DNA from: Vescimonas fastidiosa
GTDB lineage: Bacteria; Bacillota; Clostridia; Oscillospirales; Oscillospiraceae
Direction of reading: 5' to 3'
NCBI RefSeq assembly: GCF_018326305.1
Contig: NZ_AP023415.1
Span: 1,302,001 to 1,366,000, forward strand
DNA: 64,000 nucleotides
In this document: positions 31,464 to 58,888 of the stretch, one piece after another
How the letters are laid out: each line of letters begins with the position of its first letter
Numbering within the stretch: the stretch's first letter is position 1
Position numbers and translations under genes: made by a program
The notes under the pieces: model-generated
The model's input: the letters and a program-made list of their open reading frames with translations, nothing else
The model's database searches: none
What the model was told of the DNA's origin: nothing

Positions 31464-31742
31464 GTTCTTCCACCTCCGCTATCATTATGAACGCTTCTTT
31501 TCCGCTTTAACCAAAAAGCCGCCGAGCATACAGGCAAAATATTTTGTCTGCAAGCTCCACGGCTCTGCATTTTTGACTTGTTTTATCACGAGCAAAACAG
31601 GCGGCTGGTGGCTGCCAGCCTCACGGGAATCTCACCCCGGCCCATGCTGATGGGTGCGCCGTACGATGCTTTGAGGGCGTCCAATGCGGGAGTATCTTTA
31701 AGGGTGCCAGTGGTCGTGGCCCACAGAGTGCCGCTCTGTTTC
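31405..31742. repeat. Recombinase leader repeat, copy B
   Basis: Near-identical to 1499-1835 (see there). It shows that the left end of region 2 is a remnant of an element related to the intact one. The 31743-31892 gap holds only an AT-rich leader for the next gene. Confidence 0.85.
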
Positions 31743-31892
31743 GGCGCAGCTTCTCCGTAACCGCCAAGCCCACCCGAACATGGGAGCGCATAAGGAAAAG
31801 AAATGTCTGAATGTTCATGAAAATATTTGCTTTTTTCGGATTTTGAGATATACTATTTCTATATAAGCTCCGCAGGGGAAAGGGGATTCATG

Positions 31893-32837
31893 ATGGAGAA
31901 TAAAATGGAAGAAAGAAACTGGAAGTATAAAATCAACGGTGGATGGCCTACGCTCATCATGGCTTCGGTCATGCTGGCAATCTTTGGCGGGATCACGGTT
32001 TGGCTCTACACCACACGGAATGGTGCCTTCATCGGCGGCCTGATTGTGACGGCCTGTATGGCGATTGGCTTCATTTTATCCGTATGCAGCGTTCTATTTT
32101 TTAAGGTGTTCGTGGATAAGGACGGCTTTTTTTGTCAAACCGCACCGGGCAACGGGCGGTACTATCGCTACAGCGAGATCCGCAATATGTGGCTCAGTTC
32201 CGGCAGGGAGACAAACGCACGCCAGCCGACCTACTGCAACTTTGAAACGGTAGAAGGAAAGCGGATGAGATTCCTCGTACTTGGCTCCCAAATCGATGCA
32301 GTTGATTATATGATCGAGCGGGTCGAGTCTATGGGGAACAAAAGCGGGGAAGATGATCTTGACTGGGAGATCGTCATCACCGGCAAGAAGGAGGCTGGAT
32401 TTGTGGTAATTCCCACGATTCTCTCCTTGATTATGCTTGCCGTAATGGTGATGTTGTTTTTGGCGTGGAATCTGCCGCCGATAGTCATTGCAGTTCCCGT
32501 TATTCTTGAGCTGATGTCACTGTCACAGATTCTTTCTCTTGGGTTGTTTTACAAAGTAATCATTCAGAAGGACGGTTTTTATTGCCGCACCAATCCCTTC
32601 GACGGGCGGTACTACCGCTACAGCGACATTCTGGACTGGCGTCTTGTCGAGTCGCAGCGGAAGATCGGCTCCCGGTACAACAGAGGAAGAATCCGCAAAA
32701 TGTACTACTTTTACGACCTGAAATTCATCGACCGTGCGCACCAGACACACCGGCTCCCTTATAACAAATCACTGTACGAGGGAGAGATTGGCGAGTTGGT
32801 CGCCAGAATTGAGAGGACACATGACAATGAAGCATAA
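31893..32837 (+). CDS. Membrane protein with internal duplication, unknown function
   Basis: A 314-residue protein starting at ATG 31893 (AGGGG 7 bp upstream; ATG 31890 is also possible). Two similar halves each have two membrane helices followed by a soluble segment. Compare VDKDGFFCQTAPGNGRYYRY with IQKDGFYCRTNPFDGRYYRY. The soluble part may be a PH-like domain of the type found after paired helices, but I do not recognise the family. The next gene overlaps its end, so the two are an operon. Confidence 0.75.
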   Translation: MENKMEERNWKYKINGGWPTLIMASVMLAIFGGITVWLYTTRNGAFIGGLIVTACMAIGFILSVCSVLFFKVFVDKDGFFCQTAPGNGRYYRYSEIRNMWLSSGRETNARQPTYCNFETVEGKRMRFLVLGSQIDAVDYMIERVESMGNKSGEDDLDWEIVITGKKEAGFVVIPTILSLIMLAVMVMLFLAWNLPPIVIAVPVILELMSLSQILSLGLFYKVIIQKDGFYCRTNPFDGRYYRYSDILDWRLVESQRKIGSRYNRGRIRKMYYFYDLKFIDRAHQTHRLPYNKSLYEGEIGELVARIERTHDNEA

Positions 32838-33390
32838 CTCCCCCCGATTGACAGATGGCATTTCCCGGTTTTTGATAACCGTTATGGGAATTGTCATGAT
32901 GATTGCCGGTATCCGTCTGCTCATTATGGGGGTGGATAACTTTATCCAGCCAATCCGCCATGCCGGCTGGGTAACCACCAGCGCAAATGTTACCGACATA
33001 TCTGAAACGGTCATAAAGAACAATTTTTTTAGAAACAAGCGGACAAGAATCCACTATAAGTGGACTTATGAGTATGTGGTGGACGGTACGCACTATACAG
33101 GCGAGTTTGGCCCCTTGGCGAACTCAGTCACGGTGGGTAAGTCCATCCAGATCAAATTTGACCCGGATGCACCGGAAAACTCGACCGGCTTTATAGAACC
33201 GAGCTTCAGCGACATTGTTCTCGCTGTGATTGGCTTGGTTGTCGCTGTGCTCGGGTTCTTCATATCGGGCATCTGCCCCCTGATCCGCAGGCTGACCGGG
33301 AGGGATCGATTCGATGAGGAGGAAAAACTGCCGCCGGAAGAGAAATACGACCTGTCCGCTGAGGACGCCCCGCATACGAGAGAAAAGTGA
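32821..33390 (+). CDS. DUF3592-like membrane protein
   Basis: A 189-residue protein starting at ATG 32821 (GAGAGG upstream), overlapping the upstream gene by 17 bp. It has an N-terminal helix (about 15-38), an extracellular beta-rich part with YEYVVDGTHYTGEFGPLANS, VGKSIQIKFDPDAPENSTGF, and a second helix (about 130-155). The pattern fits DUF3592. Function is unknown; it probably works with the preceding membrane protein. Confidence 0.75.
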   Translation: MTMKHNSPRLTDGISRFLITVMGIVMMIAGIRLLIMGVDNFIQPIRHAGWVTTSANVTDISETVIKNNFFRNKRTRIHYKWTYEYVVDGTHYTGEFGPLANSVTVGKSIQIKFDPDAPENSTGFIEPSFSDIVLAVIGLVVAVLGFFISGICPLIRRLTGRDRFDEEEKLPPEEKYDLSAEDAPHTREK

Positions 33391-33584
33391 GGGTAGGCAA
33401 TACCCCCCCCCCGAGTTCTTTTCCCGATACTTGCATTTGTGCTTTTCGGGGTGCTCATCATGCTTCTCCAGGGCGGAAGATTCTGATCATAGGAGCTATT
33501 GTTTGTTCTTTCTCTGTCTTAATACCTCCGATAGAGTGAGTCCTTCTGGATGCGCCATGATGACGCTACCCTCGTGACAACTCG

Positions 33585-33619
33585 AGAGCGCACCTTCCCC
33601 TTGGTGGGAGGTGCGCTCT
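33585..33619. terminator. Hairpin between DUF3592-like and HTH genes
   Basis: AGAGCGCACC and its exact complement around a CCTTGGTGGG-type loop. It could serve either strand. The remaining 33391-33584 shows no gene. Confidence 0.6.
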
Positions 33620-33627
33620 GTCTGCGT

Positions 33628-33846: not shown

Positions 33847-33923
33847 TTTGCGGATCAGCTGATGTTCACGACTGAGATTAAATCCATAGCCGTTTTCCTA
33901 TTTTGTTCCTTAAAAGTGTTCGG

Positions 33924-36738: not shown

Positions 36739-39700
36739 TCAGTTTTCCTCCGCCATCCTCTTATACTTGGCGTAGCGCGCCTTTACATCGGCGATCTCCT
36801 TGGCGTAGAGCGCGTCCGCCTTCTCCGGGAAGTTGTTCTTCAGGGAGGCGAAGCGGTTCTCGCCCATGAGGAAGTCCATGAGCTTGTCGGTGTCGGGTTC
36901 CTTGGAATCCAGCTGGAAGGGGTTCTTGCCCTCGGCGATGCGGCGGGGATCGTAGCGGTACAGGTGCCAGTAGCCGCACTCCACTGCCTTCTTCATCTCC
37001 TCCTGCGTACAGCCCATGCCCGCCTTGATATGCTGCTCCAGGCACGGGCAGTAGCAGATGACGATGGAGGGGCCGTCATAGGCTTCCGCCTCGCGGAATG
37101 CGCGGAGCGTCTGCGCCTGATCCGCGCCCATGGCCACCTGGGCCACATATACATAGCCGTACTGCATCAGGATGCCGCCCAGATCCTTCTTGGACACCTG
37201 CTTGCCGCCGGCGGCGAATTTCGCCGTGGCACTGGTGGGCGTTGCCTTGGACGCCTGCCCGCCGGTGTTGGAGTACACCTCGGTATCCAGCACCATCAGA
37301 TTCACGTTGCGGTTCTGCGCCATCACGTGGTCGATACCGCCGAAGCCAATGTCATACGCCCAGCCGTCGCCGCCGATCGCCCAGACGGATTTCCGCGCCA
37401 GATACTCGCGGTTTTCCAGAATGTACGCGGTGTCGTCGTTCTGGGGAGCCGCCTCCACGGCGGCGAGCAGCGCATCGGTCACGGCGCGGGACTTGGTGCT
37501 GTCGTTCCAATCCTTCAGATAGGCGGCGATGGCGTCCACCGCCACACCCTGCGATTGCAGCTTCTCCAGATGCACCATCAGCTCCTTGCGGATGATGTCC
37601 TGCGCGTGGAAGAATCCGTAGGCAAACTCAGCGTTGTCTTCAAACAGGGAGTGCTCCCATGCGGGGCCATAGCCGTGGCAGTCCTTGCAGTAGGGCAGGA
37701 TCGGCGCGCCGCCGCTGATGGCGGAGGAGCAGCCGGCGGCGTTGCCGGCGTACATGTGGTCGCCGAACAGCTGGCTCAGGAGCTTGATGTATGTCGTCTC
37801 CGCGCAGCCAGCGCAGGCAGCGGAGAACTGGAAGTAGGGCTTGGCGAACTGGATGCTCTTCACGGACTTGTCGCTGATAACGTCCGGCTTCAGATACTTC
37901 TCGTCCATGGCCACCTGATCGAATAGGGGCTGCTCTGCCTTCATGTCCTCGAAGGGCACCATGGTCAGGGCACCCTCGGCGGGGCACGCCGTCAGGCACA
38001 CGCCGCAGCCCAGACAATCGTAGGGCGATACCTGCATACGGAAGCTGTAAGCGGGTGCGTCCTTCCCCAGGCCCTTGGCGGGGGCGGTGACGAAAGCGGC
38101 GGGCACCTGTGCCTGCTCCTCCCCGGTCAGCAGCACCGGACGGATGGCGGCGTGGGGACAGCTCATGGCGCAGCGGTTGCACTGGATGCAGGCCGTCTCA
38201 TCCCATTTGGGAACGAGGGTAGCCACGCCGCGCTTGGAGAAGGCGGAGGTGCCGTTCTCCCACGTGCCGTCCAGCACGCCGTGCTTTTGGAACACGGACA
38301 CGGGCAGCTTGTCGCCCTGCTGGCGATCCATGGGGAGGACGATGTCCTTGACGAAGGGCGTGGCGTTGATCTCGGCGGCAGGCGCGTCCTGCGCGTAGGC
38401 CCACGCGGCGGGGATCTCCACCTTCACGGCGGCGTGGATACCCACGTCCACCGCCTTGTCGTTCAGATCCACGATCTTCTGTCCCGCCTTCTTAAAGTAG
38501 GTGGCGTAGTTGTTCTTCTTCATATCCGCCACGGCAACGTCCATGGGGATGACCTTGGTCAGGGCAAAGAATGCGCCCTGAAGGATATTATTGGTGTGCT
38601 TACCCAGCCCCACCTCCGCCGCCAGCTTGGCAGCGTCGATGATATAGAACTGCGCGTGCTTCGCGGCCAGATCCCGCTTCATCTTGGCGGGCAGACGTTC
38701 CTCCAGCTCCTCTACCTGCCAGGGGCAGTTCAGCAGAAACGTGCCGCCGTCCTTCAGGTCCTCGGTCAAATCATATTTCTTGACATAGGTAGGTGCGTGG
38801 CAGGCTACGAAATCGGCAGAGGACACCAAATAGGTGCTGCGGATGGGCGCATCGCCGAAGCGCAGATGGCTCTGGGTCAGACCGCCGGATTTCATGGAGT
38901 CATAGGAGAAGTATGCCTGGGCATACTTGTCGGCCACAAGACCGATGGTGGAGATGGCGTTCTTGTTGGCACCCACGGTGCCGTCGCCGCCCAAACCCCA
39001 GATTTTGCAGGAAATTTCGCCGGGATGGGAGAACTCCACATTCTCATAGTCCAGGGAGGTGTGGGTCACATCGTCGCAAATGCCGATGGTAAAGCTGTTC
39101 TTAGGAATCTCTTGGCGCAGGTTATCGTACACAGCGATGAGCTGGCCGGGGGTGGTGTCCTTGCTGCTAAGACCATAGCGGCCACCCACCACGCGGATGT
39201 CGCCCCGGCCCGCCTGGTTCAGCGCCGTGACCACATCCAGGTACACGGGCTCGCCTACGGAGCCGGTCTCCTTGCTGCGGTCCAGCACGGCGATGCGCTT
39301 GCAGGCGGCGGGGATAGCGGCAGAGAAATCCGGCACGGAGAAGGGGCGGTACAGGTGGATCTGCACCATGCCCACCCTGCGGCCCTGCGCGTTGAGATAG
39401 TCCACGGTCTCCCGCAGAGCCTCGGTGACGGAGCACATGGCCACCACCACTTCCTCGGCATCGGGGGCGCCGTAGTAGTTAAAGAGCTTGTAGTCGCGGC
39501 CCGTCAATTTGTTGATCTCGTCCATGTAGTGCTGCACCGTTCCGGGCACGATGGCGGACTTAACGTTGGCACCCTCCTTGCACTGGAAGTACACGTCGGG
39601 GTTGACGTTGTTGCCGCGGTTGGTGGGGTGCTCCGGGTTCAGGGACTGGCGGCGGAAATCCCGCAGTGCGTCCTGATCCAGCAGGGGCCGCAGCTCCTCG

Positions 39701-40266
39701 TAGTCCAGCGCTTCGATACGCTGCATCTCGTGAGAGGTGCGGAAACCGTCGAAGCAGTGCATAAAGGCGTACTTTGCCTTGATAGCGGACAGGTGCGCCA
39801 CCGCCGCCAGATCCATGGCCTCCTGAGGGGAGGAGGACATCAGCATGGCGTAGCCGGTGGTACGGCAGGTCATAAAGTCCGTATGATCGCCGAAAATGGA
39901 GTGGTGGTTAGAGGTCACAACGCGGGAGGCGATGTGCATGACGCTGGGGAGGAACTGACCGCCCATGGCATACATGGCAGGGATCATCAGCATCAGACCC
40001 TGAGAGGAAGTAAAGGTAGTGGTCAGGGCGCCGGCCTGAAGAGAGCCGTGGCAGGTGCCGGCGGCACCCGCCTCGGACTGCATCTGGATCACGTCCACCG
40101 GTGTGCCGAAGAGGTTCTTTTTCCCCTTGGCGGACCACTCGTCCACCTTCTCAGCCATGGGGGACGACGGCGTGATGGGGTAAATGGCCGCCACCTCGGT
40201 AAAGGCATAGGCGGAATGGGCTGCGGCGGTATTGCCGTCCATGACCACATAATTCTTTTTGCTCAT
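36739..40266 (-). CDS. nifJ: Pyruvate:ferredoxin (flavodoxin) oxidoreductase
   Basis: A 1175-residue fused enzyme that splits pyruvate to acetyl-CoA and CO2 with reduction of ferredoxin. I chose ATG 40266; a GTG at 40287 is in frame but overlaps the upstream gene. In order it shows the TPP/pyrimidine domain (YPITPSSPMAEKVDEW), the CoA and gamma domains, two ferredoxin clusters (CIQCNRCAMSCPHAA and CLGCGVCLTACPAEGAL) and CAGCAETTY. The TPP-binding GDGWAYDIGFGGIDHV and EVYSNTGGQ complete it. Length is normal. It follows the aldolase gene directly, so pyruvate from the aldolases is its likely feed. Confidence 0.96.
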   Translation of the reverse strand: MSKKNYVVMDGNTAAAHSAYAFTEVAAIYPITPSSPMAEKVDEWSAKGKKNLFGTPVDVIQMQSEAGAAGTCHGSLQAGALTTTFTSSQGLMLMIPAMYAMGGQFLPSVMHIASRVVTSNHHSIFGDHTDFMTCRTTGYAMLMSSSPQEAMDLAAVAHLSAIKAKYAFMHCFDGFRTSHEMQRIEALDYEELRPLLDQDALRDFRRQSLNPEHPTNRGNNVNPDVYFQCKEGANVKSAIVPGTVQHYMDEINKLTGRDYKLFNYYGAPDAEEVVVAMCSVTEALRETVDYLNAQGRRVGMVQIHLYRPFSVPDFSAAIPAACKRIAVLDRSKETGSVGEPVYLDVVTALNQAGRGDIRVVGGRYGLSSKDTTPGQLIAVYDNLRQEIPKNSFTIGICDDVTHTSLDYENVEFSHPGEISCKIWGLGGDGTVGANKNAISTIGLVADKYAQAYFSYDSMKSGGLTQSHLRFGDAPIRSTYLVSSADFVACHAPTYVKKYDLTEDLKDGGTFLLNCPWQVEELEERLPAKMKRDLAAKHAQFYIIDAAKLAAEVGLGKHTNNILQGAFFALTKVIPMDVAVADMKKNNYATYFKKAGQKIVDLNDKAVDVGIHAAVKVEIPAAWAYAQDAPAAEINATPFVKDIVLPMDRQQGDKLPVSVFQKHGVLDGTWENGTSAFSKRGVATLVPKWDETACIQCNRCAMSCPHAAIRPVLLTGEEQAQVPAAFVTAPAKGLGKDAPAYSFRMQVSPYDCLGCGVCLTACPAEGALTMVPFEDMKAEQPLFDQVAMDEKYLKPDVISDKSVKSIQFAKPYFQFSAACAGCAETTYIKLLSQLFGDHMYAGNAAGCSSAISGGAPILPYCKDCHGYGPAWEHSLFEDNAEFAYGFFHAQDIIRKELMVHLEKLQSQGVAVDAIAAYLKDWNDSTKSRAVTDALLAAVEAAPQNDDTAYILENREYLARKSVWAIGGDGWAYDIGFGGIDHVMAQNRNVNLMVLDTEVYSNTGGQASKATPTSATAKFAAGGKQVSKKDLGGILMQYGYVYVAQVAMGADQAQTLRAFREAEAYDGPSIVICYCPCLEQHIKAGMGCTQEEMKKAVECGYWHLYRYDPRRIAEGKNPFQLDSKEPDTDKLMDFLMGENRFASLKNNFPEKADALYAKEIADVKARYAKYKRMAEEN

Positions 40267-40283
40267 ATTATTTTTCCCAACTT

Positions 40284-41087
40284 TCACTTTTCACCGTGGA
40301 AGGCTGCGATGTCTGCCTTCGCCATGTTCATAAAGATCGCGGTATCGCAGGAATATCCCACAAAGCGGACACCCATTTCCAGCAGCCTTCTGCCGGACTC
40401 CGCAGAATCGGCGAAGCAGCCCACCTGCACGCCCTTTGCCGCCGCCTTGCGGCAGATCTCGCCGATCAGCTCCATGACTTTGGGGTGGTTGATCTGCCCG
40501 ATGATGCCCAGAGAGGCAGACAGATCGTAAGGCCCTACAAACACGATATCCACACCTTCAACGCTGAGGATGTCATCCAGATTGTCAATGGCCTTCTGGC
40601 CCTCTGCCTGAAGGATCACCATGGTGTCCTGTGCCTTGGCAAAGTAATCCGCACCGGGGATCGCACCATAGGCGGCGGAGCGGACAAAGCGGCAGGTCCC
40701 ACGGGTGCCGCGGGGGGAGAACTTTGCCGCGGAGACGGCGATCCTCGCCTGCTCTGCGGTGTCGATCTGGGGGATCATCACCGCACCGGCACCCACGTCC
40801 AGGGCTTGGTCGATCCAAATGTCCGTTCCCCGGGGAACGCGGACTACGGGGCAGACACCGGACACATTGGCAGCGCGGATCAGGTTTTGCAGGTTCTCAA
40901 AGGTGCCGGGACCGTGCTCCATGTCCAGCAGCACGAAATCGTAACCGGCGTAGCCCGCCGCCTCCACGAAGGCGGGGTCGGAGGTGATCATAAAGGGTCC
41001 GAAAGCACCCTGCTCGGAGTGCAGCGCCTTTCGGAAAACTTCAACATCACGCAAGCTCGGAAAGGGATAATTATTCACGATCTTCAC
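40284..41087 (-). CDS. HpcH/HpaI-family aldolase
   Basis: A 267-residue class II pyruvate aldolase starting at GTG 41087, overlapping the upstream dehydratase by 17 bp. Family motifs are FVLLDMEHGPG (metal-binding Glu), RVPRG, AVMIPQIDTAEQA and IVFVGPYDLSASLG. Members cleave 2-keto-3-deoxy or 4-hydroxy-2-oxo acids to pyruvate plus an aldehyde. It sits between a serine-dehydratase-like enzyme and PFOR, so it probably cleaves a 2-oxo acid made by the former. Confidence 0.88.
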   Translation of the reverse strand: MKIVNNYPFPSLRDVEVFRKALHSEQGAFGPFMITSDPAFVEAAGYAGYDFVLLDMEHGPGTFENLQNLIRAANVSGVCPVVRVPRGTDIWIDQALDVGAGAVMIPQIDTAEQARIAVSAAKFSPRGTRGTCRFVRSAAYGAIPGADYFAKAQDTMVILQAEGQKAIDNLDDILSVEGVDIVFVGPYDLSASLGIIGQINHPKVMELIGEICRKAAAKGVQVGCFADSAESGRRLLEMGVRFVGYSCDTAIFMNMAKADIAAFHGEK

Positions 41088-45624: not shown

Positions 45625-45627
45625 GGC

Positions 45628-46617: not shown

Positions 46618-46641
46618 GAAGACAATTCCTTTCTCTCGGCA

Positions 46642-47553: not shown

Positions 47554-47558
47554 CAAGA

Positions 47559-50397: not shown

Positions 50398-51426
50398 TCA
50401 TCTCTGAACACGACCCGTGCTGTTACCGGCGACCAAAGCATTTACTTCCTCCACGGTAACAAGGTTCACATCGTGTTCGATGGTATGCTTCAAGCAAGAA
50501 GCGGCTGTGGCGAAATTGATAGCATCCTGAGGTGCCTTCTCTTCCAGAACACCGTAGATCAGGCCTGCACCGAAGCTATCTCCACCACCCACGCGGTCTA
50601 CAATGTGAATACGATAGGTGGGAGAGAAATACGCCTGACCATCACAATAAAGCATGGCTCCCCAGTTGTTATCGTTGGCCGAAAGGGATTCCCGTAGTGT
50701 AATGGCAACCATCTTTGTGCCGAAACGCGCCTGCAGCTGCTGCGCTACAGAAATGTATCCCTGTCTGTTGAGATTGCCGCCTTCCACATTGTTGTTGGCA
50801 GCCTCGATGTTGAAAACATCTTTTGCATCTTCCTCATTAGAGATGCACACATCCACATAGGGCATCAGCTCTGCCATAACGCGCCCGGCGTCCTCGCGGG
50901 ACCACAGCTTCTTGCGGTAATTCAAATCGCAGGAAACAGTAAGTCCCCTTTTCTTTGCAGCCTTGCAGGCATCCAGACAAATCTTCGGTAAATCACCTCC
51001 CAGCGCAGGGGTAATGCCTGTGAAATGGAACCAGTCCGCATCGCGGAAAATCTCATCCCACTGGAACTCCTCCGGCTTTGCTGTAGTGATGGATGAACCG
51101 GCCCGGTCATAAATGACCTTCGAGGGACGCTGAGAGGCGCCCTTTTCTGCGTAATAGACACCCAACCGGCTTCCACCACGGTACATGTAGGTCGTATCGA
51201 CCCCGTACTGCCGCATGGCATTGACGGCACACTGACCGATCTCATGCTCGGGAACTTTTGTGACAAATGCGGCGCTCATCCCATAATTAGCAAGTGAAAC
51301 AGCAACATTGGCTTCTCCACCGGCATAAGAGGATTCAAATTGGGACGCCTGAACAAACCGGTAATAGCCTACAGGATTCAGGCGAAGCATGATTTCTCCA
51401 AATGTAATTACTCTCTTTTTCATCAT
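50398..51426 (-). CDS. kdgK: PfkB-family sugar kinase, 2-keto-3-deoxygluconate kinase type
   Basis: A 342-residue kinase starting at ATG 51426, overlapping the aldolase stop (TAATG). N-terminal TFGEIMLRLNPVG and YAGGEANVAVSLANYG, and the catalytic Asp in VDRVGGGDSFGAGL, match KdgK-type PfkB kinases. It would phosphorylate 2-keto-3-deoxygluconate to KDPG. Its direct coupling to a KDPG aldolase supports this. Activity on a related 2-keto-3-deoxy acid is possible. Confidence 0.88.
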   Translation of the reverse strand: MMKKRVITFGEIMLRLNPVGYYRFVQASQFESSYAGGEANVAVSLANYGMSAAFVTKVPEHEIGQCAVNAMRQYGVDTTYMYRGGSRLGVYYAEKGASQRPSKVIYDRAGSSITTAKPEEFQWDEIFRDADWFHFTGITPALGGDLPKICLDACKAAKKRGLTVSCDLNYRKKLWSREDAGRVMAELMPYVDVCISNEEDAKDVFNIEAANNNVEGGNLNRQGYISVAQQLQARFGTKMVAITLRESLSANDNNWGAMLYCDGQAYFSPTYRIHIVDRVGGGDSFGAGLIYGVLEEKAPQDAINFATAASCLKHTIEHDVNLVTVEEVNALVAGNSTGRVQR

Positions 51427-52082
51427 TAAATCTCTAAAGCAGCAACAAACTTCTTTGCGGTTGCAGTAATCTCGTCATAGCGTCCTTCAGCGAGGAGCTT
51501 TTTGCTACAAAGATTACCGCCCACACCAACACCTACCATACCCAGCTTCAGGAACATACCGATGTTGTCGAGGTTTACGCCTCCGGTAGCCAGAAGCTTC
51601 ACCTGGTTGATAGGCGCACGAATGGACTTGATGTAATCAAATCCCAGTTGAGCCGAGGGGAACAGTTTTACAAAATCCGCACCCCAACGACTTGCAGCCA
51701 AAATTTCAGTGGGGGTCGCGGCACCGGGGATAGACACCACTCCTCGCTTGATAGTTTCGGCGATTACACTCTCATCGGTATTGGGAGAGATAATAAACTT
51801 TGCACCTGCATCCGCCGCAACATCGACCTGCTGAGCGGAGATCACGGTACCGGCGCCAAACATCATTTTATCACCCAGAGCAGAATTCAGTGCTTGAATT
51901 GTATCTGCCGTTTCTTGAACAGACTGGCTATTGCTCTGATCGTAAGTGATTTCCAGCAGTGAAATGCCGCCATCATACAGGGCCTTCGCAAGATTGATAC
52001 ACTGTTCGCCGTAAATCCCTCTGGCAATTGCAATGATTTTTTCGCTTGAAATCTTGCAAATGACCTGTTCTTTGTTAATCAT
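51426..52082 (-). CDS. eda: KDPG/KHG aldolase
   Basis: A 218-residue class I aldolase starting at ATG 52082 (AAGGAG 8 bp upstream). The Schiff-base Lys is in ADFVKLFPSAQLG, the general base Glu in LLEITY, and the phosphate loop in LATGGV. It splits KDPG to pyruvate and glyceraldehyde 3-phosphate, or cleaves 4-hydroxy-2-oxoglutarate. It is the first gene of the minus arm behind a consensus promoter and operator-like site. Confidence 0.92.
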   Translation of the reverse strand: MINKEQVICKISSEKIIAIARGIYGEQCINLAKALYDGGISLLEITYDQSNSQSVQETADTIQALNSALGDKMMFGAGTVISAQQVDVAADAGAKFIISPNTDESVIAETIKRGVVSIPGAATPTEILAASRWGADFVKLFPSAQLGFDYIKSIRAPINQVKLLATGGVNLDNIGMFLKLGMVGVGVGGNLCSKKLLAEGRYDEITATAKKFVAALEI

Positions 52083-52262
52083 TGCGGTAACTCCTTGTTG
52101 GTAAAAGTGAGGCAACAGAATGTTTAGGCAAACTCGATCCTGCTATTCTAAATGTGTCTAAATGTGATAGATACGAGAGATAAGCTCTCGAAAAACACGT
52201 TGGGATAGGGCATCACCTCAACATTCCGTTAAGTCCATTAACATTAAGACGGAAAACGTACG

Positions 52263-52296
52263 GTTGGACGTATATAAGAACTCGTCCGCAATCTCG
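52263..52296. promoter_or_regulatory. Operator-like site 1 (eda promoter)
   Basis: Begins TTGGACGTATATAAGA and ends GTCCGCAATCTCG. TTGGACG and CGTCC form imperfect inverted arms. It matches 53403-53436 and, in reverse, part of 52440-52467. It lies just downstream of the eda transcription start, a blocking position. Confidence 0.65.
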
Positions 52297-52565: not shown

Positions 52566-53315
52566 ATGGCACAGCAGCATCGTTCTACCCAGCGAGCATT
52601 GGATATTCTCTCCCTTCTGGCATTATGTGGTGACACCAAGGGCTACACGTTAACGGAAATTGCAACCGCGTTAGATGTTCCCAAAAGCAGTGTATCTCCT
52701 ATCATTCACACACTGGAAGCAAACCACTACCTGAAGTACTCTTCTCCTGAGGCAAAATACAGCATCGGACGCAAAGCGTTTGAGGTTGGCAGCGCGTACG
52801 TCAAAAACGACATTTTTTATTCACAGGCGATCTCCATCATGCAGAGCATTGTGGATGCATGTTCCGAAACCTGTCACATGGGTGAGCTTCAGGGGATAAA
52901 CGTGCAATACCTGATGAAAGTTGAATCACCGGAACCCATAAGCATGTTCTCTGCGGTAGGCAAGCAGATTCCTGCAAACTGTACAGCTCTGGGAAAGGCT
53001 CTCCTGTGCGAGCATACCTTGGATGAGATAAAGGCCTTGTTCAAGGACGGGCTTCCCAAGATGACAGAATACTCCGTAGCAGATGCAGAGCAGCTATATC
53101 AGCAGACCAAAATGGTCAGGAAAACACAGATTGCACGCGAGAAGGAGGAAAACTATCAGTTTATCCAGTGCCTTGCCACGCCCATCTACAAAAATGAGAA
53201 ACCCATTTTTGCGATGAGTGTTTCTGTACCCACTTTCCGCTACACAGAAGAAAAGGGTCAGCAAATTGAGAAACTTCTATTGGAGGCAAAGAAAAATCTG
53301 GAGCTGATTCTCTGA
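52566..53315 (+). CDS. IclR-family transcriptional regulator
   Basis: A 249-residue regulator starting at ATG 52566 (AAGGAGG upstream). The N-terminal winged helix is RALDILSLLALCG, then YTLTEIATALDVPKSSVSPI. The C-terminal effector domain has GELQGINVQYLMKVES, CTALGKALLC and the final MSVSVPTF. IclR members sense small organic acids or amino-acid-derived ligands. It stands between the two divergent arms of the cluster, with related sites at three promoters, so it is the probable pathway regulator. Confidence 0.92.
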   Translation: MAQQHRSTQRALDILSLLALCGDTKGYTLTEIATALDVPKSSVSPIIHTLEANHYLKYSSPEAKYSIGRKAFEVGSAYVKNDIFYSQAISIMQSIVDACSETCHMGELQGINVQYLMKVESPEPISMFSAVGKQIPANCTALGKALLCEHTLDEIKALFKDGLPKMTEYSVADAEQLYQQTKMVRKTQIAREKEENYQFIQCLATPIYKNEKPIFAMSVSVPTFRYTEEKGQQIEKLLLEAKKNLELIL

Positions 53316-53402: not shown

Positions 53403-53436
53403 AATTGGACGTATATAAGACTCTGTTCGCAATCCC
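53403..53436. promoter_or_regulatory. Operator-like site 3 (ald promoter)
   Basis: Starts ATTGGACGTATATAAGA and ends GTTCGCAATCCCG. It matches site 1 over about 34 bp and overlaps the transcription start. Confidence 0.65.
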
Positions 53437-53490
53437 GCACAACAAGAATAGGCTAAGTTTAGCCAAATGTTTTTTTGGGAGGTAACACTT

Positions 53491-54618
53491 ATGATTTTTG
53501 GTATTCCCCGTGAACTCAAGGACCACGAGACTCGTGTGGGGGCTGGTCTGATTCCTCGTAATGTTGCGACTCTGATTGCTCAGGGACATACGGTTTATTT
53601 CCAGAAGGGCGTTATGGAGCCCGCTGGTGTTTCCGATGAGGAATTCCTCAAGGTTGGCGCCAAGTGCGTTGACACCATGGAAGAGATTTATGAGAAGTGC
53701 GACTTCATCGGCAAGTTCAAGGACATGACTGACGGTGACATGAAGATGCCCTTCAAAAAGGGTCAGATCATCATGACTGCTTTCCACATGGCCGAAGGTA
53801 CTGCCAAGCCCGAGCAGGTCAAGATCCTGGCTGACGCTGGCGTGACCTGCATTTCCATCGAAACCTCTCGTTATCCCGACGGTTCCCGCGCAATGACCCG
53901 TCCCATGGGCGAGATTGCTGGCCGTACGGCTCCTCTGCTGGGTGGCCAGTATCTGCAGCGTCAGTACGGCGGCAGCGGTGTCTCCATCGTTCCCGTTACC
54001 GGCGCAAGAAGAGCTCGCGTTTGCATTCTCGGCGGCGGTCATGCCGGTATGTGCGCAGCACAGACTGCTGAGGGCCTCGGTGCCGAAGTGGTCGTCTTCG
54101 ATGTAAACATTCAGCGCCTGGAGTATCTGCGCACAGTGCTGAAGAACACGGATCTCCGCTTTATGAGCAAGACCGCTTTCGCCGAGGAAGTGGCTAAGGC
54201 CGACGTACTGATCAACTGCATCTATGCCTATCCCGGCATGGAAGTTCCCATCGTGACCCGCGATATGGTTCGCAGCATGCGTAAGGGTTCTGTCATCGTT
54301 GACCTGGAGGGTGAAGGCATCATCGAGACCTCCCAGTATACTACCATCAGCAATCCTTACTTCGTCGAAGAAGGCATCGTCCATGTTGGTATTACCAACA
54401 TCCCCGCAATGGTTCCTACGGCCGCCAACGAGAGCTATGGCGCATACGTTTTCCCGCTGGTACAGGATATTGCCAAGTACGGCATCAAAGAGGCCTGCAA
54501 AAAGAACTATGTCCTCAGAAGCTGCGTAGCGATGGTAAATGGCAAGATCACCCAGAAAGAGGTTGCTGATAGCCAGCATTGCGAGTATACTCCCCTGGAT
54601 CCCGATACCATGTTTTAA
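53491..54618 (+). CDS. Alanine-dehydrogenase-family oxidoreductase, altered active site
   Basis: A 375-residue NAD(P)-dependent enzyme starting at ATG 53491 (GGGAGG 8 bp upstream). Compared with alanine dehydrogenase, Arg15 (HETRVGAG), Lys74 (GKFKDM), His95 (TAFHMAEG), the nucleotide loop ILGGGHAGMCAAQ and the substrate-side Asn in ITNIPAMVP are kept. The loop holding catalytic Asp269 (VAIDQGG in Bacillus) is replaced by LEGEG, two residues shorter. Substrate or reaction may therefore differ, for example reduction or oxidation of another amino or imino acid. It opens the plus arm. Confidence 0.85.
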   Translation: MIFGIPRELKDHETRVGAGLIPRNVATLIAQGHTVYFQKGVMEPAGVSDEEFLKVGAKCVDTMEEIYEKCDFIGKFKDMTDGDMKMPFKKGQIIMTAFHMAEGTAKPEQVKILADAGVTCISIETSRYPDGSRAMTRPMGEIAGRTAPLLGGQYLQRQYGGSGVSIVPVTGARRARVCILGGGHAGMCAAQTAEGLGAEVVVFDVNIQRLEYLRTVLKNTDLRFMSKTAFAEEVAKADVLINCIYAYPGMEVPIVTRDMVRSMRKGSVIVDLEGEGIIETSQYTTISNPYFVEEGIVHVGITNIPAMVPTAANESYGAYVFPLVQDIAKYGIKEACKKNYVLRSCVAMVNGKITQKEVADSQHCEYTPLDPDTMF

Positions 54619-54724: not shown

Positions 54725-55636
54725 ATGAATAAGCTTTTTTTCTCTTGGCCACAAAAAAATCGGGCTCTCCCCGTAATCTGCGTCTGTGTGGGGCAGGTTA
54801 TTTGGGGATTCAGCTACCTTTTTACTCGCATTGCGCAGAGCTCGGCAAGCCCGACCGTTGTTCTTTCCATGCGTTTCCTGGCCTCCTGGGTTATCATGAC
54901 CGCGTTGATTTGGAGCGGGAAAAAGTCTTTTTCCCTGAAAGGCAAAAACTTTCGCCCACTTCTGGCACTTGCACTGCTCGAACCGCCGTATTATTTTTTT
55001 GAGAGTTACGGCGTTTATTACAGCAACGCAACCTTCGCTGGCACCGTCATGGCCTTTGCGCCGGTTGTCGGTATTTTGGCAGCAATGCTGTTCTTGGGAG
55101 AAAAGCCTACTCGCAGGCAAAAGATTTTTTCCCTTTTACCCACTGCCGGCGTTATCATCATAACGTCGGTGGGCAGTTCCATGGGAATCGTCAAGCCCTT
55201 GGGTGCCATCTTTTTATTTGCATCCCAAATCGTAGCTGCCGGTATGAAGCTCTACAATAAGAAGTCCAGCGAGGAGTTCTCTTCGTTTGAGCGAACCTAT
55301 GCGATCGTAGTAGCTAACGCCATTATCTTTACTATCAAATCTATGATAGACCTACACGGTGATGTGCGAGCCTATGCGGCGCCGTTAGGAAATCCGGAAT
55401 ACGTGTTTGCGCTGGTGGTACTGTGCCTATTCTGTAGTATTGCAGCCAATCTTCTGGTGAATTATGCCTGCGGTATGATGAGCGTTACCAGAATATCCAC
55501 TTTCAGTACCATTGCCACGATCTGCTCTGCTTTTGGCGGTGTGATCTTTTTGGGTGAGCCCATTACTTGGATGACATTTTTTGGCTCAACGATCATCATC
55601 ATTGGCATATGGCAGGTAACGAGGGATGCCTCATGA
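54725..55636 (+). CDS. EamA/DMT-family transporter
   Basis: A 303-residue protein with ten predicted membrane helices in two EamA repeats. Markers are WGFSYLFTRIA in helix 1 and FLGEKPTRRQKIF and FLGEPITWMTF at the repeat ends. DMT proteins often export amino acids or metabolites. Within this cluster it may move a substrate or waste product. It follows the ald-like gene by about 107 bp with a weak ribosome site. Confidence 0.88.
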   Translation: MNKLFFSWPQKNRALPVICVCVGQVIWGFSYLFTRIAQSSASPTVVLSMRFLASWVIMTALIWSGKKSFSLKGKNFRPLLALALLEPPYYFFESYGVYYSNATFAGTVMAFAPVVGILAAMLFLGEKPTRRQKIFSLLPTAGVIIITSVGSSMGIVKPLGAIFLFASQIVAAGMKLYNKKSSEEFSSFERTYAIVVANAIIFTIKSMIDLHGDVRAYAAPLGNPEYVFALVVLCLFCSIAANLLVNYACGMMSVTRISTFSTIATICSAFGGVIFLGEPITWMTFFGSTIIIIGIWQVTRDAS

Positions 55637-55729: not shown

Positions 55730-56452
55730 ATGGAAAAGATGCCCAAAATCGCCTTGCTGCGCTGGGACGCCGATCAGATAAGCGATGTTCTGATGAAGCT
55801 GGAAACTCTTCCCGGAAACAGCACCAACCCTGAGTCCTATCCCTTTGATGTTGCGCTGGTACACGTTAAGGGTGCAAACATGGACACAGTTGAAGTCAAT
55901 CCTTGCCAGGAGCTGCTGGATGAGTATATCAGAGTATGTAAGGAACTGGCCGCTCAGGGTGTAAAGGCTATCACCACCAGCTGCGGTTTCAATGCATATT
56001 ATCAGGAGGCTTTGGCTGCCGCAGTGCCCGAGGTGGTTTTCACCAGCTCCTTGCTGCAGGTACCGTTCGCTCAGACCATCGTGGGCAAAAACGGTAAGGT
56101 TGCTATTTTGACCGCCAACTCTAACGACTTGACTGAGGAGCACCTTGCCCGTGCCAATATCACTAACCGCGAAAATGTGCTTATTTACAGCATGCACGAG
56201 CAGCCCGAGTGGAGCCGCGTATACAGTGATCCTAACGGCCCCTTTGATTTGGACGCTGTTGCTAGTGAGGTAGTGGACGTCCTGCGCAAAGGTCTGGAGG
56301 AGCATCCCGACATCGGCGCCGTAGTCTTTGAATGCACCGATCTTCCTCCCTTCGCCTCTCGCGTGCGCGAGGAATTGGGTCTGCCTGTGTTTGATTTTAA
56401 CTCTATGGTGGGCCATATCGCCATGGCGCTGAATGTTCACAAGCTGTATTGA
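55730..56452 (+). CDS. Aspartate/glutamate-racemase-family protein
   Basis: A 240-residue protein starting at ATG 55730 (AAAGGAG upstream). Both catalytic cysteines of the cofactor-free racemase fold are present, in TTSCGFNAYYQ and VFECTDLPPF. The family covers Asp, Glu and hydantoin racemases and maleate isomerases. It could change the stereochemistry of the imported amino or hydroxy acid before the dehydratases. No substrate can be named. Confidence 0.82.
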   Translation: MEKMPKIALLRWDADQISDVLMKLETLPGNSTNPESYPFDVALVHVKGANMDTVEVNPCQELLDEYIRVCKELAAQGVKAITTSCGFNAYYQEALAAAVPEVVFTSSLLQVPFAQTIVGKNGKVAILTANSNDLTEEHLARANITNRENVLIYSMHEQPEWSRVYSDPNGPFDLDAVASEVVDVLRKGLEEHPDIGAVVFECTDLPPFASRVREELGLPVFDFNSMVGHIAMALNVHKLY

Positions 56453-56603: not shown

Positions 56604-57923
56604 ATGATTCGGTTGACACCCTACGAGCAGGAAATGCTTGATGGTAAATACGGTGCTGCCAAGCAGGTCGCATTGCAGAAGATCATCGACTATGCGCGGA
56701 TTCTGGGCGCGGAGGAGCTGGTACCCATTACCAAGGCTCATCTGTGCTGCGGTTCCACCTGTGAACCGTCCGACTTCCCCGATGGGAATCTGGACCGCCC
56801 CGATATTCTGGCCATGGGCTACCACGACTGGCAGACCAAGCTGAAATGCCCCGGGATGGACCCCACCACCTTTAACAGCTTTAACGAGAGCACCTTCGTC
56901 ATCGATGACGTACACTGCTGTGACACATTTCAGTGGCAGTGGACGCAACAGACCCGCGAGTTTTACGAGAATAACCAGCATATCCTCGCTGATGCGGCGG
57001 CGCACGGCGTGGTAATCGGTTCCACCTGCGCCCCCTATCTGGCCGGATGGCTGCCCGTCATGGGTGAGTATTTCGTTACCACCGAATCCAGCAACGTGCT
57101 GTACTGCAACTCCGTTTTGGGCGCACGGGGCTATGGCGGCGGCGGTAACACCACCTTCTGCGCAGCGATCTGCGGCCGCGCACCCAAGTGGGGCCTGCAC
57201 CTGCCGGAAAACCGCCACGGCACCCATGTGTTCCATCTGGCCTGCGATACCAAGGACAAGACAGACTGGGATCTGCTGGGTGCCGCCGTGGGGCGTCGTC
57301 TGACTCCCAACGCCGTCCCCGTGATCTGCGGCGATTTTGAACGGCCCGATCTCATCAAGCTGAAGTCCTTCTTCACTGCACTGGCGGTGACCAGCGGCTG
57401 TGAGCTGTGCCTGATCGTGGGAGTGTCCCCCGAGGCCCAGACATATGAGATGGCTATGGGAGGCCATGAGCCCGTCGCGGAATTCACCATTACCAATGAG
57501 ATACTACAGTCCTATTGGGATGAGATTTGCTGCAAAGTGTCCGGCCCGGCTGACTATTTGCAGATCGGTTGCCCCAACTGTTCCGCCGAGGAGCTTGTCC
57601 GCATCTGGCGGTACATGAACGGGCGGAAGGTTAAGGAAGGCGTCCGCTTCTGCGTGTTCACCAACATCGCGCAGTATGCCATGGCGGAGCAGTCCCACAT
57701 TATTCAGGATCTGAAGGATTGGGGCGCGGAGGTTCTGACCAGTGGCTGCATCCTGCGTACCATCAACGTAGCCAAGGGTGCCAAGTCCATTGGTCTGTCC
57801 TCCTTCAAGCTGTGCAACGGCAGCAAGGATGAGCGGGACTGTCCCATCTATTACGGCTCCGATGAGCAGGTCATCGATGCTGCCATCAGCGGTTATTGGA
57901 AGGTTAAAAGGAGATATGAGTAA
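56604..57923 (+). CDS. Aconitase X catalytic (large) subunit, divergent
   Basis: A 439-residue protein starting at ATG 56604 (AGAGGAG upstream). AcnX features are an N-terminal LTPYEQEMLDGKYGAAKQVA, then SNVLYCNSVLGARGYGGGGN, CAAICGRAPKWGLHL, QIGCPNCSAEELVRI, and a late LTSGCILRTINVAKG with SSFKLCNG. AcnX enzymes are Fe-S hydro-lyases. Known members are cis-3-hydroxy-L-proline dehydratase in bacteria and mevalonate 5-phosphate dehydratase in archaea. This one is unusually Cys-rich (HLCCGST, HCCDTF), so it may be a separate subgroup. Its stop overlaps the small-subunit start. Confidence 0.85.
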   Translation: MIRLTPYEQEMLDGKYGAAKQVALQKIIDYARILGAEELVPITKAHLCCGSTCEPSDFPDGNLDRPDILAMGYHDWQTKLKCPGMDPTTFNSFNESTFVIDDVHCCDTFQWQWTQQTREFYENNQHILADAAAHGVVIGSTCAPYLAGWLPVMGEYFVTTESSNVLYCNSVLGARGYGGGGNTTFCAAICGRAPKWGLHLPENRHGTHVFHLACDTKDKTDWDLLGAAVGRRLTPNAVPVICGDFERPDLIKLKSFFTALAVTSGCELCLIVGVSPEAQTYEMAMGGHEPVAEFTITNEILQSYWDEICCKVSGPADYLQIGCPNCSAEELVRIWRYMNGRKVKEGVRFCVFTNIAQYAMAEQSHIIQDLKDWGAEVLTSGCILRTINVAKGAKSIGLSSFKLCNGSKDERDCPIYYGSDEQVIDAAISGYWKVKRRYE

Positions 57924-58350
57924 GAATAAGATCATCAAAGGCCGTCCCGCATGGGGGCCCGTGGTCGAGGGTTACGCCTTTGTCTGCCCCAACAGCATCG
58001 TGGGCTGGAATGGTGCGGATGTAAAGACCGGTATTGTGACGGAAAAGGGCAATGTCCATTATGGAGATAGCTTTGCCGGTAAGATCATCGTAATGCCTTG
58101 CAGCCGCGGTTCTTTGGGGTGGTCCGATATGTTCCGTAACAGCGAGTATAATGGTGTTGGGCCCATTGGCTATGTTTTCACCACGATGGACTCCAAGTGC
58201 GGCACCGCGATCTTCAACACCAGACGCCCCTGTGTTGCGGATTTTCCGGCTAACTGCGATCCCTGCAAGGAGATCCATGACGGCGACTACATCAGGCTCG
58301 ACGGCATTAACGGTACGGTGGAAATACTGACTCCCGTCGAAGGTGAATAA
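57916..58350 (+). CDS. Aconitase X small (swivel) subunit
   Basis: A 144-residue protein starting at ATG 57916 (AAAGGAG upstream), overlapping the large subunit by 8 bp. The swivel-domain signature MPCSRGSLGWSDMF contains the active-site Ser region, and VVEGYAFVCPNSIVGWNG matches the AcnX small-subunit start. The two proteins would form one hydro-lyase. Confidence 0.88.
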   Translation: MSKNKIIKGRPAWGPVVEGYAFVCPNSIVGWNGADVKTGIVTEKGNVHYGDSFAGKIIVMPCSRGSLGWSDMFRNSEYNGVGPIGYVFTTMDSKCGTAIFNTRRPCVADFPANCDPCKEIHDGDYIRLDGINGTVEILTPVEGE

Positions 58351-58373
58351 CAAATTTGAAAGGAAATACTGTG

Positions 58374-58760
58374 ATGGAATTCAAGAAAGAAAAAGTTTAT
58401 ACTCCTTTGGTTGCTACCCCTACTCACAACGTCTCCCAAGCTATCAAATATGGTAACCTGGTGTTTATCTCCGGTATGGTTGGCGAGGATGAGAATGAAG
58501 TTCTTATGGATGGTCTGGAAGCGCAATGTGAGCGTGCTTTCCTCAACATGAAGAATGTCCTGGAAGCCGCCGGCTCCAGTCTTGAGAAGGTTCTTTTCTG
58601 CCAAATCTTTATCGGCAAACGTGAAGATCGCACCATTGCCAACAAGGTGTGGGATCGTTATTTCCTGAACATGGATGTAGCCCCTGCCCGTTATACCGTT
58701 GTGGCTCCCACAGTTGCTGAGCCGTATTTGTTTGAGATTACTTGTGTCGCAGGCGTATAA
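58374..58760 (+). CDS. ridA: RidA-family imine/enamine deaminase
   Basis: A 128-residue protein starting at ATG 58374 (GAAAGGAAA upstream). The RidA pattern is clear: FISGMVGED near the N-terminus, VLEAAGSSLEKVLFC, and the closing APARYTVVAP with the catalytic Arg, plus FEIT with the conserved Glu. RidA hydrolyses 2-aminoacrylate-type enamines or imines to 2-oxo acids. Serine-dehydratase-like and AcnX enzymes both yield such intermediates, so its presence fits the pathway. Confidence 0.9.
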   Translation: MEFKKEKVYTPLVATPTHNVSQAIKYGNLVFISGMVGEDENEVLMDGLEAQCERAFLNMKNVLEAAGSSLEKVLFCQIFIGKREDRTIANKVWDRYFLNMDVAPARYTVVAPTVAEPYLFEITCVAGV

Positions 58761-58815
58761 CAAGCGCCTCCTCAACGTAATCGTTTGTAAAAGAGTAACT
58801 GATATCCTATCAGCC

Positions 58816-58864
58816 TAAGAACAAGAGACATCTCCCGTGTTTACACGTTGAGATGTCTCTTGTT
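58816..58864 (+). terminator. Terminator of the plus arm
   Basis: AAGAACAAGAGACATCTC pairs with GAGATGTCTCTTGTTC around an ACACGT-containing loop, about 55 bp after the ridA stop. Confidence 0.7.
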
Positions 58865-58888
58865 CCGTCTATATTATAATAATGAGTG

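Follow-up and report, generated by a model that had tools for sequence, protein, structure and literature searches.

Gene content of the cluster

Does the divergent gene cluster around an iclR gene of Vescimonas fastidiosa encode a single catabolic system and, if so, on which compound does it act? In the window, by which we mean the whole stretch of 64,000 nucleotides that was analysed, every enzyme named in the original prediction was found in its predicted place, as judged by Pfam and NCBIfam (Opp subunits by Pfam). Read outward from the iclR gene, the minus arm encodes KDPG aldolase, KDG (2-keto-3-deoxygluconate) kinase, a family-5 solute-binding protein (SBP), OppBCDF, the serine-dehydratase-like proteins SDH1 and SDH2, an HpaI aldolase, PFOR, a crotonase, 4-hydroxybutyryl-CoA dehydratase and a 4HBT thioesterase. 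The plus arm encodes IclR, an alanine-dehydrogenase-like (AlaDH-like) protein, an EamA permease, an Asp/Glu-racemase-family protein, the large and small subunits of AcnX (aconitase X) and a Rid-family protein. The EamA permease had not been listed before. Other genes, one with DUF3592 and one with no Pfam match, occupy 31827-33390.

36739..40287, minus strand: pyruvate:ferredoxin oxidoreductase (PFOR; PF01855 and others), adjoining or overlapping HpaI
40284..41087, minus strand: HpaI/GarL/YfaU-type class II aldolase (PF03328)
41071..42630, minus strand: SDH2, paralogue of SDH1 (PF03313/PF03315)
42747..44300, minus strand: SDH1, Fe-S serine-dehydratase-like (PF03313)
44656..48497, minus strand: OppB, OppC, OppD, OppF ABC importer (PF00528, PF12911, PF00005, PF08352), with OppF 44656-45624, OppD 45628-46617, OppC 46642-47556 and OppB 47559-48497
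48680..50242, minus strand: family-5 solute-binding lipoprotein (PF00496), kept in G515 and L008
50398..51426, minus strand: predicted KDG kinase (PF00294, PfkB family)
51426..52115, minus strand: KDPG/KHG aldolase (PF01081; TIGR01182 at 170 bits, above the cut-off of 156)
52566..53315, plus strand: IclR regulator, KdgR-like (PF01614/PF09339)
53467..54618, plus strand: divergent alanine-dehydrogenase/PNT-like oxidoreductase, likely start 53488
54725..55636, plus strand: EamA/DMT permease (PF00892)
55730..56452, plus strand: Asp/Glu-racemase-family protein (NF005679/PRK07475 at 223 bits, cut-off 231)
56604..57923, plus strand: AcnX type II large subunit (PF04412)
57916..58350, plus strand: AcnX swivel (small) subunit (PF01989), RGS motif with presumed base Ser
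58374..58760, plus strand: predicted Rid-family (RidA-like) enamine/imine deaminase (PF01042 at 77 bits, cut-off 27)

The genes are tightly packed: given GTG starts, SDH2 and HpaI overlap by 17 bp and HpaI and PFOR by 4 bp, and the two AcnX genes overlap by 8 bp. Several enzyme names are loose, with scores under the curated NCBIfam cut-offs; this applies to alanine dehydrogenase, L-serine ammonia-lyase, cis-3-hydroxyproline dehydratase, HpaI/GarL and the TIGR00004 Rid type.

The two arms form one predicted regulon

The original prediction had proposed gene co-occurrence across genomes as a check on a single system. Of 32 genomes sampled from the genus, exactly the same three carry two-subunit AcnX, the divergent SDH and the divergent AlaDH-like protein, in agreement with a single system; in two of these carriers the marker genes lie in separate places. 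The chance of an identical 3/32 pattern is 1/C(32,3)=2e-4 per pair, kinship ignored. Both SDH types occur in the window, G515, G518 and L008. The KDPG aldolase and KDG kinase genes bridge the arms: in the window and L008 they are grouped with Opp and SDH1-SDH2-HpaI, and in G515 they lie immediately downstream of AcnXL-AcnXS-Rid, both of which favour a common pathway. Against it, the AcnX-Rid operon of G518 is located apart from this gene pair, with RpiB, transketolase, a DHDPS-family gene and another PfkB gene as neighbours.

An inverted repeat, predicted to be an operator, occurs upstream of both arms:

52264..52293, plus strand: predicted operator 1 (TTGGACGTATATAAGAACTCGTCCGCAATC), between KDPG aldolase and iclR
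53405..53434, plus strand: predicted operator 2, upstream of the AlaDH-like operon

Operator 1 scored 32.8 of 33.6 with a position weight matrix built from four sites, itself among them, and is common to the window at 53405, G515 and L008. The AlaDH-like operon has a TTGACA-17-TATAAT promoter at 53372-53400, and operator 2 begins 4 bp past its -10 element. The two operators share an exact match of 16 bp, while the longest in 60 shuffled pairs was 12 bp. A scan of six genomes at 0-1 mismatches matched the pattern in G000 and G515, at this locus and nowhere else. That no copy was found in G518 (a genome 79% complete) or at the importer and SDH loci of G515 counts against a single IclR-controlled pathway. 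For the iclR region, Rfam returned no riboswitch match up to E=5. The best solved relative of IclR is KdgR (1ysp, 70 bits; next 59), and IclR would bind the predicted operator. Taking together the co-conserved markers, the bridging KDPG aldolase and KDG kinase genes and an operator upstream of each arm, we conclude from sequence that both arms are one jointly controlled regulon. The original prediction of one co-conserved, co-regulated catabolic system therefore stands.

The separate C4-CoA branch that it had included does not. Carrier G515 has no 4-hydroxybutyryl-CoA dehydratase (917 bits to 1u8v for the window's protein), while 9 of the 29 non-carriers do have one, and the C4-CoA genes were therefore placed outside the regulon and removed from the system.

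SDH1 and SDH2 differ from L-serine dehydratases

SDH1 and SDH2 are 65% identical. The fold of SDH1 is nearest to 4rqo, the type 2 Fe-S L-serine dehydratase LpLSD, with which fold and three Fe-S cysteines are shared; these [4Fe-4S] ligands are kept in SDH1 and in all 118 aligned SDHs, including the canonical reference L111. His61 is described as the catalytic base of LpLSD (PMC12647591). The His61 position, placed in the GKGHGTD motif by deduction from chain numbering, is Leu in SDH1 and Met in SDH2. In 117 SDH-like sequences it is Met in 99, Leu in 10 (Met or Leu in 109/117), Ser in 5, His in 1 and a gap in 2, with 5 short sequences of 120 listed SDH proteins left out of the count; in addition, SSSHT is changed to SSSNT in 113/117. 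The same genome also encodes an L-serine dehydratase (L111) that keeps the catalytic His. A role of SDH1 and SDH2 as plain L-serine dehydratases was set aside on these grounds.

AcnX is linked to a Rid gene

PF01989 and PF04412 fall on separate, overlapping genes, which makes the AcnX of this locus type II. The Fe-S cysteines C153, C334 and C393 as well as E172, S173 and K413 (numbered in the 450-aa frame from 56571) are kept here and in 29/29 near relatives; the roles of the cluster Cys and the active-site Glu, Ser and Lys are those given for type II AcnX in PMC8184944. Family, catalytic residues and cluster ligands at type II positions agree with known AcnX enzymes, whereas the positions that in type I bind the hydroxyproline nitrogen are changed. 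The position of AtAcnX Asp203 is Cys in 27 of the 29 near relatives and Thr in 2, and that of Thr72 is Gly/Ala in the small subunits (by eye). The alignment of near relatives took in L038, not L031, which was added for the tree. NF051439 scored 170 bits, where its cut-off is 700. The changed nitrogen-binding residues count against an amino substrate for AcnX, in favour of which the Rid gene and the context speak.

The genomic partners, Rid and KDG enzymes, also set this AcnX apart from known ones. Two separate AcnX groups have a Rid gene adjoining AcnX, in 5/5 loci (window, L075, L108, L031 and L038, the last two found via their SDH gene), in favour of the pathway proposed below. Among the 10 other AcnX pairs read, none has Rid next to AcnX; L084 has a 31% Rid gene ~3 kb off. 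In the AcnX tree, the window group and L031/L038 fall into different supported sets; its 4 label changes say little, as the majority of its rows stand for database proteins without known genomic context. The Rid protein scored 59.5 bits with TIGR00004 (RidA type), below the cut-off of 106, and aligned to solved Rid proteins it keeps the Arg of the PAR motif, a motif which we take to hold Arg-105. An Arg equivalent to RidA Arg-105 is held to predict deaminase activity, according to PMC5619798.

AcnX was found in 1/394 of an order sample at E<=1e-60, in the window's own genome only, and with profile A2 in 9/391 of a class sample at E<=1e-70, the eight others being 25-38% identical to the window's AcnX. 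SDH1 was found in 4/150 of a family sample at E<=1e-40 (three others, 29-41% identical). The protein cluster nearest to the window AcnX (92% identity) has 1533 member sequences.

KDG branch, AlaDH-like and racemase-family proteins

The kinase matches the solved KDG kinase 2afb with 380 bits (next 185), and its close relatives adjoin a UxaC, UxuA or UxuB-like gene in L076, L079 and L080, both in favour of a KDG branch. It scores below the cut-off of the NCBIfam KDG kinase models, including the kinase part of NF041633 (580 bits, where the cut-off of that fusion model is 700). As evidence for the pathway a kinase alone is unspecific, since at E<=1e-60 such a kinase occurs in 23 of 60 relatives. 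Kinase, aldolase and regulator family are alike to the KDG branch of hexuronate users with a KdgR-like regulator; unlike there, no known family of uronate isomerase, reductase or aldonate dehydratase is represented among the scanned cluster genes. The nearest solved structures to the HpaI-type aldolase are YfaU (2vws) and GarL (1dxe).

As predicted, the active site of the AlaDH-like protein is changed: the DQGG segment, whose Asp we take to be catalytic, is shortened, and Glu replaces Asp. The protein scored 262 bits against a curated AlaDH cut-off of 392. Orthologues are 87-88% identical in G515 and 66% in G518, and at 66% or more the protein is specific to the 3 carriers. The racemase-family protein falls just below PF01177 (27.7 of 31) and has both active-site Cys of cofactor-independent amino acid racemases (SCGF, ECTD), as do 7/7 aligned sequences (A4). 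Its model (pLDDT 90) shows the fold of arylmalonate decarboxylase and of aspartate/glutamate/hydantoin/allantoin racemases, with arylmalonate decarboxylase, not a racemase, as top match; a sequence search of the PDB gave no match. We propose that it is a 2-epimerase/racemase. OppBCDF orthologues in G515 and L008 are 86-93% identical.

A proposed pathway and its alternatives

We tentatively put forward, at somewhat less than an even chance, an IclR-controlled pathway for a 2-amino-3-hydroxy acid with further hydroxyls that runs via PLP-free dehydration, Rid and KDG. All substrates and reactions in it, like the roles of the AlaDH-like and racemase-family proteins, are predictions. Once the ABC importer has taken up the acid, its configuration at C2 would be fixed by the racemase-family protein. 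Water would be eliminated across C2-C3, from different isomers and without PLP, by AcnX and the two SDH-like [4Fe-4S] enzymes; hydrolysis of the resulting enamine/imine by Rid would release ammonia and leave KDG or one of its stereoisomers. Phosphorylation of KDG and cleavage by KDPG aldolase would yield pyruvate and glyceraldehyde-3-phosphate; alternatively, the HpaI-type aldolase would split KDG directly. PFOR would convert pyruvate to acetyl-CoA, and the AlaDH-like protein may carry out an ammonia or imine redox step. The earlier outline, in which dehydration gives an enamine/2-oxo acid, aldol cleavage leads on to pyruvate and PFOR follows, remains the most economical reading, with the convergence point revised to a KDG-type sugar acid. 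That revision favours a polyhydroxylated 2-amino acid over 3-hydroxyproline or beta-hydroxyaspartate, which had been candidate substrates; D-glucosaminate or an epimer (2-amino-2-deoxy-aldonic acid) is favoured, though unproven.

Two systems resemble this proposal. A predicted haloarchaeal glucosaminate route clusters with IclR, RutC-family and putative ammonia-lyase genes (PMC12343721), in support of it. The Salmonella dga system converts D-glucosaminate to the 2-keto-3-deoxy-gluconate skeleton, from which an aldolase yields pyruvate and glyceraldehyde-3-phosphate (PMC9529869); the same conversion and cleavage are predicted here from the genes. Salmonella, however, relies on a PTS, a substrate in phosphorylated form and a PLP ammonia-lyase, whereas the prediction here is of ABC import, Fe-S dehydratases with Rid and a separate KDG kinase. 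Rather doubtful is the more specific proposal that AcnX II and Rid constitute a new PLP-free two-step amino-sugar-acid ammonia-lyase, beside a new His-less SDH-like family, that feeds KDG metabolism in Oscillospiraceae-type bacteria.

Two ordinary modules under one regulator, a D/L-serine-alanine (Stickland-type) module of racemase, SDH, AlaDH, Rid and PFOR plus a KDG module, with an unrelated role for AcnX, are unlikely. Loci that look like amino-acid fermentation and have no KDG genes do contain relatives of SDH, AlaDH and racemase at 27-57%, which speaks against the proposed pathway. SDH relatives at about 40% identity adjoin AlaDH- or racemase-family genes (L013, L014, L016, L021, L024), L021 lies beside SelA (PF03841) and L016 beside a gene for glycine/sarcosine/betaine reductase component B (PF09338), and in G125 and G542 the genes of racemase relatives at 54-57% are oriented divergently to those of canonical AlaDH. 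However, SDH1/2 have lost the His that L111 keeps, the divergent AlaDH-like protein is confined to the carriers, KDGK/KDPGA lie inside the AcnX-Rid operon of G515, and the scanned cluster genes include no hexuronate isomerase/reductase.

It is quite improbable that the dehydratases convert ordinary non-amino aldonates directly to KDG with Rid as an accessory. The KDG kinase, KDPG aldolase and KdgR-like regulator would fit, as would the missing nitrogen-binding residues of AcnX and the non-amino hydroxy acid that is the substrate of solved type II AcnX (PMC8184944), but Rid adjoins AcnX in two separate groups, and the SDH, racemase and AlaDH families are all amino-acid-directed. Still less probable is an opine- or Amadori-like sugar-amino acid conjugate, whose secondary amine the AlaDH-like protein would oxidise to free an amino sugar acid or sugar acid. 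Carboxyethyl-ornithine synthase uses the AlaDH fold, and the SBP matches include AgaA (6hlx) and agrocinopine AccA; the SBP similarity is, however, too low for ligand inference. Degradation of cis-3-hydroxy-L-proline, known as the function of type I AcnX in bacteria, is highly improbable: the family is right and the AlaDH-like protein could, speculatively, be a pyrroline-2-carboxylate reductase, but this AcnX is two-subunit type II with Asp203 changed to Cys, the Thr72 region replaced and an NF051439 score far under cut-off, and the KDG genes would be left unexplained.

In the AcnX/DUF521/aconitase X literature searched, which covered few subscription papers, no cluster of this kind is apparent from titles and the openings of abstracts; in the same body of literature, aconitase X is never co-mentioned with RidA or with 'hydroxyproline dehydratase', while AcnX and cis-3-hydroxy-L-proline come up together in three papers. 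Judged from its Oscillospiraceae relatives, we infer that the host dwells in the animal gut. If the proposed amino-sugar-acid pathway is true, aconitase X would gain a third kind of reaction, a family often labelled L-serine ammonia-lyase in databases would have a different job, and a Rid protein would be a dedicated pathway enzyme and not damage control alone. It would also hint at an unrecognised nitrogen-containing nutrient.

Gene content and distribution of the cluster

Every enzyme named in the original prediction is encoded in the window (genome size 2.5 Mb), in two runs, or arms, around iclR.

Minus strand, leading away from iclR: KDPG aldolase (KDPGA), KDG kinase (KDGK), family-5 solute-binding lipoprotein (SBP5), OppBCDF, the paralogous Fe-S serine-dehydratase-like enzymes SDH1 and SDH2, HpaI, PFOR, crotonase, 4-hydroxybutyryl-CoA dehydratase (4HBD), thioesterase
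Plus strand, in order: iclR, AlaDH-like enzyme, EamA permease, racemase-family protein, AcnX large subunit, AcnX small subunit, Rid protein

The genes of the two AcnX subunits overlap, as do SDH2, HpaI and PFOR provided that GTG starts are used. These overlaps suggest that dehydration, aldol cleavage and pyruvate oxidation serve a joint function. Two matches to the Rfam pemK RNA above gathering score lie on the minus strand, at 1714-1794 and 31621-31701.

Among 32 genomes of the genus, including that of the window (14 of them with completeness of 90% or more and contamination of no more than 5%), AcnX of at least 71% identity (E≤1e-30) was found in three: the window's genome, G000, and two further carriers, G515 and G518. 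SDH-type proteins (at least 64%) and the divergent AlaDH-like enzyme (at least 66%) occurred in the same three genomes; SDH relatives of 47–49% identity were present in two more, and the remaining AlaDH-like matches reached at most 34%. A single such coincidence has a chance of 1 in 4960 assuming independent genomes, which genomes are not. Kinship is nevertheless unlikely to be the full explanation, since 4HBD of the non-carriers G531, G514 and G521 is as near to the window's protein (92–93% identity) as that of the carrier G518 (93%). The shared distribution of the three markers is as expected for the one system that had been proposed. The C4-CoA branch, which had been included as part of it, did not follow this pattern: 4HBD occurs in 11 of the 32 genomes, nine of them without AcnX, and was not found in the carrier G515 (95% complete). 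Given this distribution, we count the C4-CoA tail as an adjacent module.

Both SDH types are present in the window, G515, G518 and L008, a contig labelled Bacilli. Within the compared range, KDPGA to HpaI, where the contig ends, L008 has the gene order of the window (KDPGA-KDGK-SBP5-OppBCDF-SDH1-SDH2-HpaI). In G515 the pieces are spread over three places: AcnX large and small subunits, Rid, KDPGA and KDGK divergent from iclR-AlaDH, with the contig ending just past KDGK (L075); SBP5-OppBCDF (L107); and SDH2-SDH1 with three racemase-family genes (L009). Upstream of the latter SDH pair, two 2-hydroxyglutaryl-CoA dehydratase D-like proteins and a BcrA-type ATPase are encoded (L009, 3309-7166). G518 carries the AcnX subunits and Rid, followed 11 kb on by the AlaDH-like gene (L108, L141), KDPGA-KDGK-KDPGA with an IclR gene (L077), and four SDHs.

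A common element in front of both arms

The KDPGA/iclR and iclR/AlaDH-like spacers share an identical stretch of 16 bp, while the longest in 60 shuffled pairs was 12 bp. It is part of a longer inverted-repeat-like element with further copies in L008, upstream of KDPGA, and in G515, between AcnX and iclR. The copy that precedes AlaDH in G515 is by eye a near-ideal palindrome, but its PWM score (13.75) only equals the top value from 20 shuffled stretches of 20 kb. In a search of six genomes with 0–1 mismatches, the operator pattern matched twice in G000 and twice in G515, each time at this locus, and gave no match in G518, G125, G520 and G542; two mismatches added 15 scattered matches. The total was 19, compared to 29 for a reversed-pattern control given without mismatch split. 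As the pattern was derived from the matched sites, the informative part is that there are no other near-perfect ones. Judged by this element, both arms are a single predicted regulon, in agreement with the proposed cluster around IclR, and from its position IclR is the putative operator binder.

AcnX and its Rid partner

The window AcnX is of type II. Its three cluster cysteines and the catalytic Glu, Ser and Lys (roles from excerpts of PMC8184944) are kept in all 29 near relatives and in 100/100 others. In the reference enzyme AtAcnX, the nitrogen of cis-3-hydroxyproline is bound by Asp203 (PMC8184944, in part); this position is Cys in 27 of the 29 near relatives and in L038, and among the 100 others it is Cys in four and Asp in three. 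At the position of Tyr534, whose alanine mutant is described there as nearly or fully inactive, the window AcnX has Gly and 22/29 near relatives have Tyr. This Gly either counts against activity on such substrates or may mark another pocket. From these residues, we read the window AcnX as an active-looking dehydratase with a probably different pocket.

A Rid gene directly follows the small subunit in 5/5 loci of two AcnX groups separated by tree, compared to 0/10 other AcnX pairs; L031 and L038 were found through the SDH-like gene preceding AcnX-Rid and are not an independent draw for the SDH link. Recurrence of Rid beside AcnX in separate groups argues that the AcnX product would be an enamine or imine. 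The window Rid protein keeps the PAR arginine and scores below the TIGR00004 cut-off.

Other AcnX settings were observed as well. In L031 and L038, a single run of genes makes up a second AcnX-Rid-SDH system: a TRAP-like transporter, SDH-like, both AcnX subunits, Rid and a EutH-family permease (PF04346 in L031). Genome G911 (L084, L085) has AcnX pairs close to MttB-like methyltransferases, one of which matches PF06253; by eye, corrinoid-protein-like and BCCT-like genes are there too, and one of the loci has a 30% racemase-family gene. Their setting is of betaine or carnitine type. At L088 and L089, AcnX adjoins several RraA-like aldolases, one of them with PF03737, and genes that by eye resemble LeuB/LeuCD, and L086 has two AcnX pairs in tandem and, by eye, a TRAP-type transporter.

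SDH1 and SDH2

The SDH fold is that of the type 2 L-serine dehydratase LpLSD (4rqo, TM 0.66; model pLDDT 85), and the Fe-S cysteines are kept in 118/118 aligned sequences. The base His61, whose alanine mutant is inactive (PMC12647591, in part), is Met or Leu in 109/117, and the SSSHT motif is SSSNT in 113/117. SDH1 and SDH2 have a His one residue further on, a column with His in 35/117, making a shifted base possible in this subgroup. A separate L-serine dehydratase of G000 (L111) has both motifs intact. From sequence, we take SDH1 and SDH2 to be a distinct dehydratase family, and a role as plain L-serine dehydratases was set aside.

Proposed pathway and substrate

The kinase matches a solved KDG kinase with 380 bits (next best, 185). 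Close relatives of it occur together with UxaC (L076), UxuA (L079) or a mannitol-dehydrogenase-family UxuB-like gene (L080), and such kinases are common (present in 23/60 relatives). The nearest solved relatives of HpaI, YfaU and GarL, are named 2-keto-3-deoxy sugar (acid) aldolases; among solved proteins, the regulator matches KdgR best, with a modest score of 70 bits. Of the metabolic inferences, the best supported is that the pathway converges on a 2-keto-3-deoxy sugar acid.

Dehydratases, Rid protein and aldolases would all be suited to a 2-amino-3-hydroxy acid that bears another hydroxyl at C4, with dehydration, hydrolysis and cleavage to pyruvate as putative steps. If of six carbons, such an acid would be a 2-amino-2-deoxyaldonate yielding KDG or its epimer, and the racemase-family protein might let L-type dehydratases use D-glucosaminate via its C2 epimer. 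Salmonella uses a PLP lyase in its D-glucosaminate route, which leads to KDPG (excerpts of PMC9529869). A predicted, unproven haloarchaeal route is drawn through glucosaminate-6-phosphate, and the clusters concerned contain genes for IclR and a RutC-family protein (excerpts of PMC12343721); the authors term RutC a repressor, and the Rid-family proteins matched by the window protein include RutC. PRK07475 racemase-family genes (L135, L136, L137; L013, L016, L024) are either in divergent orientation to canonical AlaDH or close to SDH-like genes, with selenium or glycine-reductase genes beside some of them; they encode candidate small-amino-acid racemases.

Taken together, we regard the catabolic system as real, with its genes conserved and regulated jointly; a description of its unusual combination of enzymes was not found in the literature searched. 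The individual parts are of known kinds; new to us are their combination and the two Fe-S dehydratase families, apparently re-purposed.
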